From assembly GCF_001485215.1 (NCBI RefSeq), contig NZ_BBWW01000001.1, positions 1,116,001-1,180,000 on the forward strand: a stretch of 64,000 nucleotides of DNA. Reading direction: 5' to 3'. Under the pieces are notes generated by a model. It was not told the origin of the DNA. It did no database searches and worked only from the letters and a program-made list of their open reading frames with translations. The translations under genes were made by a program, and so were the position numbers. Numbering within the stretch: position 1 is the stretch's first letter; each line of letters opens with the position of its first letter. This document shows positions 15,322 to 18,180 of the stretch, piece after piece. This DNA is from Leptolyngbya sp. NIES-2104. Lineage in GTDB: Bacteria > Cyanobacteriota > Cyanobacteriia > Leptolyngbyales > Leptolyngbyaceae.

Positions 15322-16038
15322 TTAATTCGCGTTCAGTTTTCCTTCAGCGCGGCTTAATACCGAATCCGTTGGCAAACACAGCAAATTATCGCCCTGCGTC
15401 CGAATCATTCCTTTCTGCCGCAGCTTACCCATCAAGCGAGTAACCGTCACACGAGTTGAACCGATCGCGCTTCCGATCTGAGCATGAGTCAGCGGAAATG
15501 GCAGGCAATACCCTTCGTCCGTGGGTTCACCGTACTCTTCAATGAGCAAAGTTAAAAATCCGAGCAATCGATCGATCGTGCGACGCTGACCCAAAGTGCT
15601 CAACCACAGTAATTTCCGCTGATGCTGATACCGGAACGCATCCAGCACTTCCCGACGGAAATGGGGCCAATTATCCAAATCGTGCCAGTACATCCACACA
15701 ACCGAAGTTTGATCCACATGAGCATAAGCTTGCAGTGTAAACGGCGATTGCGCCACAATTTCAAACGGTTGACCCGTACCCACAAATCCTAAAAATGCCT
15801 CTTCTGGGCTGATCCGAGCCAGCCGAGTCGCATTTCCACCCGTTGCATTCACTTGAGCCGTTCCAACCAATCGAACTGCACCCTTCTGCACGAGATACAG
15901 CAGACCTGGACGAGTCGGAACCCGTTCATCTTTACTGAAATTACGAACGCGATAATGTTCTTGCGCCCAATCGATAATTCGTTGCCAAGTCAGGAACGGG
16001 CGAGCAGCATCGGAATTCTGAGGTGTGACTGAGTACAT
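15322..16038 (-). CDS. Crp/Fnr-family transcriptional regulator
   Basis: 238-aa regulator with an N-terminal cyclic-nucleotide-fold (residues ~25-140, GLLYLVQKGAVRLVG) and a C-terminal winged HTH. The recognition region AIGSTRVTVTRLMGKLR is almost identical to that of NtcA, but the sensor half differs strongly, so this is a paralogue and not NtcA itself. The effector is unknown; the loop with VNATGGNATRLARISP lacks an obvious cAMP-phosphate cassette. It converges on the polyferredoxin/cNMP gene. Confidence 0.88.
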   Translation of the reverse strand: MYSVTPQNSDAARPFLTWQRIIDWAQEHYRVRNFSKDERVPTRPGLLYLVQKGAVRLVGTAQVNATGGNATRLARISPEEAFLGFVGTGQPFEIVAQSPFTLQAYAHVDQTSVVWMYWHDLDNWPHFRREVLDAFRYQHQRKLLWLSTLGQRRTIDRLLGFLTLLIEEYGEPTDEGYCLPFPLTHAQIGSAIGSTRVTVTRLMGKLRQKGMIRTQGDNLLCLPTDSVLSRAEGKLNAN

Positions 16039-16250: not shown

Positions 16251-17147
16251 TTGAACTTTTTGAACCGAAAACGATCCCATTTCAGAGCTTCAACCGTAAT
16301 TACAGTGAATTGTAACCTACCGAAGATCACTTATCCTAGGCTTCGCACATTGTTACTGGCAAGAATTTGTGAGGCAATCACCCGTAAGACGGATGTCGAA
16401 GTAGCGATCCTCTCAGATTTGCAGCCAGATTCTGAGTTTTTCCACCGAAACTCTATCATCAAAAAAGTTAGAAATCATACTTCAATCGCCCGCTATCAAT
16501 CGTCGATCGCGCTTCAGTTTGGGGCTAGATCCACGCAAATTCAAGAAAAAGTTGCAACTCAGATGAGGCAGCTTTCTTCTATTTCTTTGGTAATGGATTT
16601 AAAAACGATACTTCTACGTGATCTCACGATCAGTACGACTAACATTGGGCTTCTAGAGTTTGAGTTTGGCGATTGGGCGATCGCGAACTGGCTACAAACG
16701 GTTTGGGAGAGTTGCTCGATCGAAACCGATTTTAATTCAGCTTTTTCGCCCGCTTTGACGCTCTCAGAAAATTCTCATATTTTCTTTTGCCAGTACACCT
16801 ATTCGCGATGTAGTGCGCTTCTTCGTCTCACAAATCTACCGAATGACATAGGTCAAACAGTAGAAACATGGCTTAACGATAAAAAACTTTTATTAAGACA
16901 AGAACGATCGCTGATTGAACAAATCATTTCAACGATCGACGAATGGGAAGACAAACCGCCACTAGAGTCCGCAATTGCGCTGAGCCAAACCTTTCAGAAT
17001 TTTTATCAGTCCTGCCAGATCGTGAAGTATGAAGCGGTTGATCGTCAAATCGCACAATGTCGATTAGCTTTAGTAATGATTACTCATCGGCTTTTGAAAC
17101 AGCTTTTAGAGCAAGGATTAGGCGTTTTAGCACCGGAAACCCTTTGA
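16251..17147 (+). CDS. Stand-alone DALR anticodon-binding-domain protein
   Basis: 298-aa protein without any aminoacyl-tRNA synthetase catalytic core. Residues ~180-298 follow the DALR helical domain that binds the anticodon in arginyl-tRNA synthetase: QYTYSRCSALLRL, a middle helix pair, SQTFQNFYQSCQIV, and the typical end with LALVMITHRLLKQLLEQGL. The N-terminal half is unassigned. The first start codon in frame is TTG at 16251, with a GTG at 16305 as alternative; no ATG exists before residue 105. Cyanobacteria carry such proteins, but I know of no function. Divergent from the Crp-family gene. Confidence 0.72.
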   Translation: MNFLNRKRSHFRASTVITVNCNLPKITYPRLRTLLLARICEAITRKTDVEVAILSDLQPDSEFFHRNSIIKKVRNHTSIARYQSSIALQFGARSTQIQEKVATQMRQLSSISLVMDLKTILLRDLTISTTNIGLLEFEFGDWAIANWLQTVWESCSIETDFNSAFSPALTLSENSHIFFCQYTYSRCSALLRLTNLPNDIGQTVETWLNDKKLLLRQERSLIEQIISTIDEWEDKPPLESAIALSQTFQNFYQSCQIVKYEAVDRQIAQCRLALVMITHRLLKQLLEQGLGVLAPETL

Positions 17148-17225
17148 GAATCAGGAGCACAAGTTAGCAAGAGATGTCACAGTATTGTCACCTGATCGTC
17201 ATAACGAATTTTTATCACTCAAAGG

Positions 17226-17254
17226 GTGACAATCCTATGGAAGCCGCTTATAGT
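17226..17254 (+). promoter_or_regulatory. Promoter of candidate small RNA
   Basis: GTGACA (17226-17231), 17-bp spacer, TATAGT (17249-17254); each box matches the sigma70 consensus at five of six positions. The expected start is about 17260-17262. Confidence 0.55.
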
Positions 17255-17260
17255 ATTGGA

Positions 17261-17330
17261 GTGTGAGGAGCGAACCAGCTAAGGACACCGAGACGAAACA
17301 CGGCCAGTCGTCGGTGTCCTTTCTGATTTT
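17261..17330 (+). ncRNA. Candidate ~70-nt small RNA with intrinsic terminator
   Basis: Intergenic transcript unit with its own promoter (17226-17254) and a terminator hairpin. The stem AGGACACCGA / TCGGTGTCCT (17282-17291 and 17311-17320) is followed by TTTCTGATTTT. The 5' single-stranded part begins GTGTGAGGAG, the exact complement of CUCCUCACAC, the conserved core of the cyanobacterial small RNA Yfr1. No coding capacity beyond a 9-codon frame across the promoter. Its 3' end touches the stop codon of the opposing HAD gene. I do not recognise it as a named family. Alternatively the hairpin may only terminate readthrough. Confidence 0.5.
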
Positions 17331-18180
17331 AAAGTAGGAATTTTTCGATCGCAGTCGCTGCCCCGTCCACTTCAACCGAGGGCGCAACCCAAGTCGCCAC
17401 TTCCTGAACTCCTTCCGGCGCATTTCCCATCGCAACCCCAATTCCGGCGTACTGAATCATTTCGAGGTCGTTGAAGTTATCCCCGATCGCCATGACATTT
17501 TCTGGTTTGAGATTCAGAAGTTCCTCGGCTAAGTATTTCACCGCAGTTCCTTTATTTGCAGCGGGATTCGTCGCCTCGAAGAAGGTCGCTACCGATTTCG
17601 TTAAATAAAGTTCAGCAGGCGTGTACTGTTTTTGCAGCGAACCCAGCAGAGAATTAATCAATTCCGTGTCATCACTGAGTGCAAGGACTTTTGTCGTTTC
17701 CATGTCAAGCGTCGATCGCAAATCGCCCACTTCAATCGGAGTAATTCCGCTGCGTTGCGTGTAAGCGATCGTCTCCGGAGACATCGATCGGACGTACAGA
17801 TCGTCATTGATATAGAAATGAACCGACAACAATTCACGAAGTTTTGGTTGCTCAAAATAATCGAGCAGTTCCAATACTTGCGCCTTCGGAACCGACCAGC
17901 GGCGTAAGACTTTTCCACTTGCTGGATCTTGAATCCATGCGCCCTGATAAGCAATTAACGGTAATCTTGATCGCACTGTCTCATAGAATCGCAGAGCAGA
18001 ACGATACATCCGCCCGGTCGCGATCGCGATTTGGATGCCATTGTTCTGTGCTTTGGCGATCGCTTGTAAGACAGGTTCGCGGATATGATTAGATTTGCCT
18101 GCGATCGTTCCGTCAATGTCTAGAACTAATAATCGAATTTCAGAGTGCTGCATATATTTTTTGCGATGATTCCTCTTCAT
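17329..18180 (-). CDS. Cof-type HAD-IIB phosphatase
   Basis: 283-aa sugar- or nucleotide-phosphate phosphatase of the HAD superfamily. Motif I DIDGTIAGK (nucleophile Asp near residue 20), motif II ATGRM, and motif III/IV NKGTAVKYLAE ... GDNFNDLEMIQYAG are all intact. The C2B cap lies between. Two starts are possible: ATG at 18180 (AAGG about 8 nt upstream) or ATG at 18153. Divergent from the CDF gene with only 22 bp between start codons. Substrate not predictable. Confidence 0.87.
   Translation of the reverse strand: MKRNHRKKYMQHSEIRLLVLDIDGTIAGKSNHIREPVLQAIAKAQNNGIQIAIATGRMYRSALRFYETVRSRLPLIAYQGAWIQDPASGKVLRRWSVPKAQVLELLDYFEQPKLRELLSVHFYINDDLYVRSMSPETIAYTQRSGITPIEVGDLRSTLDMETTKVLALSDDTELINSLLGSLQKQYTPAELYLTKSVATFFEATNPAANKGTAVKYLAEELLNLKPENVMAIGDNFNDLEMIQYAGIGVAMGNAPEGVQEVATWVAPSVEVDGAATAIEKFLL

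Follow-up and report, generated by a model that had tools for sequence, protein, structure and literature searches.

A Yfr2-family small RNA gene in Leptolyngbya sp. NIES-2104 whose predicted 5′ end is complementary to Yfr1

The block at positions 17226–17330 of the analysed window, a stretch of 64,000 nucleotides from the genome of Leptolyngbya sp. NIES-2104, was found to contain a gene for a small RNA (sRNA) of the known Yfr2 family and not for Yfr1. Very probably, this gene is free-standing and is transcribed from a sigma-70-type promoter into an RNA of about 70 nt, the 5′ end of which would pair with and titrate Yfr1. An earlier note on this DNA had proposed a Yfr1 sponge or antagonist at this place, and the proposal is supported by a plus-strand match to the Rfam family RF01701, the conservation of homologues, compensatory changes in the stem, a predicted strong pairing with Yfr1 of the same genome and published binding of Yfr2 to Yfr1 (PMC6778093, PMC6974561). 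Both the family and the sponge role are already known from the literature; the apparently new details are the subtype, the conservation of its position and an extended match to Yfr1. The features of the locus, in window coordinates, are as follows:

17226–17231, plus strand: −35-like hexamer GTGACA (direct reading, promoter scan)
17249–17254, plus strand: −10 hexamer TATAGT, after a 17-nt spacer from GTGACA and 7 nt ahead of the predicted RNA start
17261–17330, plus strand: Yfr2-family sRNA, subtype A (RF01701 match, blastn homologues)
17261–17270, plus strand: anti-Yfr1 motif GUGUGAGGAG (DNA GTGTGAGGAG), predicted single-stranded 5′ end, perfect complement of Yfr1 CUCCUCACAC
17271–17278, plus strand: invariant spacer CGAACCAG (homologue alignment, predicted fold)
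17281–17321, plus strand: hairpin with an 11-bp stem, a 1-nt 3′ bulge (G), a 3-bp apical stem GAC:GUC and the 12-nt loop GAAACACGGCCA (compensatory changes)
17320–17333, plus strand: T-rich tail TTTCTGATTTTAAA, presumed termination zone (conserved in homologues)
15322–16038, minus strand: Crp-family regulator gene, retained at many loci upstream of the sRNA
16251–17147, plus strand: gene for a 298-aa protein with a C-terminal DALR anticodon-binding domain only, resembling the end of an arginyl-tRNA synthetase
ending at 17329, minus strand: Cof-type HAD gene, convergent with the sRNA gene

The hexamers GTGACA and TATAGT, read directly where the earlier note had placed them, were the only sigma-70-like promoter pair that a scan of 321 bases brought up (10 of 12 positions matching; shuffle mean 0.2). 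As in other members of the Yfr2 family, the sRNA thus appears, at the level of sequence, to have a promoter of its own, and this promoter is kept in homologues: of 142 distinct homologous loci, 87 had TGACA between roughly −45 and −25 relative to the RNA start, and the final T (−8) and the first T (−13) of the −10 element were conserved in 83 and 78% of the 142 homologues, respectively. The region upstream of the −35 element (17175–17220), containing TGTCAC repeats and ATAACGAATTTTTATC, was also conserved in close relatives; located about 45–60 nt before the RNA start, these sequences are possibly a regulator site or an UP element. From the sequence we infer a 5′ end at 17260–17262 and a 3′ end at about 17325–17332. 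The earlier description of a hairpin with a T-tract held for the hairpin, which was read directly as AAGGACACCGA-GAC-(12-nt loop)-GTC-G-TCGGTGTCCTT, but only roughly for the T-tract, since the tail TTTCTGATTTT is T-rich. No terminator was called by the terminator scan, because the 12-nt loop exceeds the limit of the scan (8) and the tail is not a clean T run; the presumed terminator after the hairpin was called by eye. In the predicted fold, CAG in the spacer is able to pair with CUG located 3′ of the main stem.

The covariance model RF01701 (“Cyano-1”) matched 17257–17327 on the plus strand with 38.8 bits (E 5e-5 on 801 bases), against a gathering score of 41 bits. Rfam at the gathering threshold gave nothing across the whole window, and the match surfaced in an E-value search. 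The shortfall is a matter of score convention and not a structural feature; the three apical pairs, the 12-nt loop and the 1-nt 3′ bulge of the RF01701 topology are reproduced in the window RNA. The window locus ranked second in the genome-wide search with this model, and a second Yfr2 copy was detected at C1:2678388–2678460 (50 bits). The third and fourth candidates (20 and 17 bits) were not accepted as Yfr2. A stretch at C1:2479104–2479153 containing GTGTGAGGAGT (17 bits) lacked a matching hairpin by eye and is probably a chance occurrence. A scan of viral contigs for Yfr2-like sequences gave one match, which falls within a coding sequence of a phage contig and was likewise regarded as chance.

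Cyano-1 has been identified as the Yfr2 family motif (PMC8400943); an identity of Cyano-1 with PsrR1/SyR1 was considered and rejected, as no paper linking them was found in the literature searched. Sye_sRNA1 of S. elongatus, which is about 200 nt long and located near psbD or cobB, was rejected as well. The layout described for the Yfr2 family comprises an unpaired conserved 5′ end, a conserved 12-nt loop, a long stem and one bulged base near the loop (PMC2662882), and all of these were found here: GUGUGAGGAG was present in 30 of 30 fetched homologues and was predicted to be mostly unpaired, and the fold and the covariation supported the long stem, the conserved loop and the single-base bulge. 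The window RNA therefore resembles Prochlorococcus Yfr2–Yfr5, Synechocystis Yfr2a–c and RF01701 in its unpaired 5′ motif, own promoter and length of about 70 nt, as well as in a 12-nt loop that contains GAAACA.GG and caps a long stem, the single bulged nucleotide of which is next to the 3-bp apical stem.

Conservation of the block in relatives, to which the earlier note had pointed as a check, was confirmed by blastn: of 58 related whole genomes, 54 had a homologue. Both GTGTGAGGAGCGAACCAG and GAGACGAAACACGG were common to all 30 fetched copies, and scanning named genome records with an exact pattern gave at least 118 stretches, including sequences from Nostoc, Calothrix, Crocosphaera, Thermosynechococcus, and Gloeomargarita. 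Among the matches listed was a record titled Candidatus Gracilibacteria, presumably a binning error. Two tandem subtype-A copies about 300 nt apart were seen in one genome (G017; L029, 1508–1575 and 1807–1874, minus strand). The 10-mer GTGTGAGGAG occurred once in the window versus 0.06 times expected, and since the 6.39-Mb genome contains 15 exact copies of it, it cannot support the case alone; judged from its sequence conservation, the complete block is not a chance occurrence. The stem showed a covariation score of 0.248 compared to 0.143 in shuffles, with none of 500 shuffles reaching 0.248. In the hairpin stem, 99.3% of cells were paired and both sides were changed at four pairs, a count that is not above shuffles (93 of 500 reached four); seven of the 14 stem pairs never vary and are therefore uninformative for covariation.

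The perfect 10-nt complement to the Yfr1 core CUCCUCACAC that the earlier note had described was recovered at 17261–17270, and comparison with Yfr1 of the same genome showed 10 of 10 matches in the core and 14 of 15 in an extended alignment. The predicted duplex continues past the core, with GAAC of the spacer opposite the Yfr1 GUUC beyond a single C.A mismatch, and GUUC was located directly ahead of ACUCCUCACAC in 29 of 30 Yfr1 loci of the relatives plus this genome. For GAAC and GUUC to pair, two base pairs at the foot of the Yfr1 5′ hairpin would need to be opened. Co-folding of the window RNA, the 5′ end of which is predicted to be mostly unpaired, with Yfr1 of the same genome gave a gain of −21.6 kcal/mol versus −7.1 ± 2.6 kcal/mol when the first 18 nt were shuffled (equalled by none of 500 shuffles). 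It dropped to −6.8 or −9.8 kcal/mol when UCCU of Yfr1 was changed to AAAA or UGGU, substitutions that abolished Yfr1–ppa binding in published work (PMC6778093). Yfr1 was present in 55 of 56 genomes searched. Yfr2 of other species is a short RNA of high abundance, and high light or nitrogen limitation induces it. A DNA Res 2018 study reportedly dealt with regulation of Yfr2 by the GntR regulator PMM1637.

Based on these comparisons, we infer that the window copy is transcribed and acts on Yfr1 in vivo. The sigma-70-type promoter would give rise to an RNA of roughly 70 nt starting at or beside GUGUGAGGAG, and its unpaired 5′ end would pair with the CUCCUCACAC core of Yfr1, which is likewise unpaired and is encoded at another locus of the genome. 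This pairing would titrate Yfr1 and thereby release Yfr1-repressed mRNAs, and the conserved 12-nt loop on the bulged stem would probably contact a further partner, either mRNA targets or a protein. Given its homology, the window RNA most likely acts on Yfr1 as Yfr2 does in Prochlorococcus and Nostoc. Yfr2 was reported to pull down Yfr1, to block the Yfr1–ppa interaction and to cancel Yfr1 repression of a PMM1121-GFP reporter in Escherichia coli (PMC6778093). Nostoc Yfr2 was shown to bind Yfr1 in EMSA and was proposed to be a Yfr1 trap under nitrogen deprivation (PMC6974561).

Two readings without a Yfr2-type RNA were considered. The minus strand contains CTCCTCACAC at 17270–17261 and might accordingly encode Yfr1, or an RNA like Yfr10, which carries the same CUCCUCACAC motif (PMC6778093), would therefore also be a partner of Yfr2 and is thus the opposite member of the pair. 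However, RF01116 (Yfr1) had no match at the locus on either strand with E up to 10, the genuine Yfr1 of this genome was located at C1:2779857–2779921 (53 bits), and the orientation of the conserved promoter, 5′ start and downstream tail is that of a plus-strand gene. The earlier judgement that a minus-strand Yfr1 is less likely therefore agrees with the genome-wide search, and this reading is regarded as highly improbable. Yfr1 is the partner of the window RNA by complementarity and differs from it in having the complementary motif, another structure and another locus. Equally improbable is the absence of any sRNA, with a chance GAGGAG resembling a Shine-Dalgarno sequence and a hairpin that terminates the convergent Cof-type HAD gene. 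The 15 genomic copies of the 10-mer would fit such an origin, and the minus-strand HAD gene ends at 17329, so that the hairpin could serve its 3′ end, but near-invariance was seen across the phylum even at loci where no HAD gene was detected alongside, and the block has both an RF01701 match and an upstream promoter. The Shine-Dalgarno reservation of the earlier note could be set aside, as no plus-strand ORF of at least 60 aa was found just downstream and GAGGAG is part of an invariant 18-mer of a structured RNA.

A more serious alternative, which we consider possible but less probable than titration of Yfr1, is that the Yfr2-type RNA acts mainly through direct mRNA pairing or protein binding by its 12-nt loop, with Yfr1 pairing being secondary or Yfr1 regulating Yfr2. 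The loop GAAACACGG and the spacer are as invariant as the anti-Yfr1 motif, 302 mRNAs were pulled down with Prochlorococcus Yfr2, and Yfr1 was shown to shield Yfr2 from RNase E in the same work (PMC6778093). On the other hand, the match to Yfr1 was kept in every homologue examined, and an mRNA was out-competed by Yfr2 for Yfr1 in vitro (PMC6778093). Titration of Yfr1 is thus preferred; since the spacer and the loop are conserved beyond the needs of the 10-nt Yfr1 core, sponging probably accounts for only part of the function.

The Yfr2 copies found by blastn and RF01701 in relatives were divided into two subtypes by the apical stem in the search expressions, and the difference in this stem is therefore descriptive. 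In subtype A, to which the window copy belongs, the apical stem was GAC:GUC and the core was followed by CGAAC in 151 of 151 copies examined, 118 of which came from a pattern fixing the spacer while the other 33 were free of that constraint. In subtype B, the apical stem was GUC:GAC and the spacer varied, GAAC being found at the corresponding place in 1 of 26 copies. The window copy thus differs from the other Yfr2 copies found here and from Synechocystis Yfr2a–c, for which published primers imply GUC:GAC (PMC2662882), in its apical stem, its invariant CGAACC spacer, its conserved position and an RF01701 score that for this subtype is mostly just below the cut-off (34.9–42.1 bits over 18 other loci, three of them above it). 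No description of subtype A, the invariant CGAACC with its extended complementarity to Yfr1 or the conserved position was found in a non-exhaustive literature search, and a search with subtype-A sequence strings gave no cyanobacterial paper among the matches listed.

With own-genus duplicates removed, and independently of the apical-stem definition, a shared flanking homologue within about 1.5 kb was detected for 173 of 276 locus pairs of subtype A (63%) versus 8 of 231 of subtype B (3.5%). A convergent Cof-type HAD gene was located 3′ of subtype A at 78 of 127 loci with enough sequence, a Crp-family regulator gene upstream on the opposite strand at 54 of 78, and homologues of the 298-aa DALR protein, in which no catalytic part was detected, upstream at 73 of 148. 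The scores of the Crp-family regulator of the window were well under the NCBIfam cut-offs for NtcA and PtrA, and the protein presumably resembles DevH/LtcA; the literature search found no paper mentioning Yfr2 together with devH. Genes for yfr2 have been described at unconserved loci (PMC6778093, PMC2662882), a statement that needs qualification, since the window-type copy keeps its neighborhood. We tentatively suggest, as a rather unlikely possibility, that subtype A forms a branch of Yfr2 with a function of its own: a nearly invariant anti-Yfr1 RNA, present at a single locus and retained in much of the phylum next to the genes for a Crp-family regulator and a Cof-type HAD phosphatase. The 14 of 15 match of this RNA with a fixed central mismatch might then tune stability or processing of the Yfr1 duplex, and the variable subtype B copies might serve other roles or conditions.

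As a very conserved subtype of Yfr2 is mostly missed at the Rfam cut-off for Cyano-1, annotated copy numbers of Yfr2 are probably too low. The Yfr1–Yfr2 pair, studied mainly in Prochlorococcus and Nostoc, is now placed in this cyanobacterium with both partners mapped, and the fixed neighbors and fixed C.A mismatch of subtype A lead to simple, testable questions.
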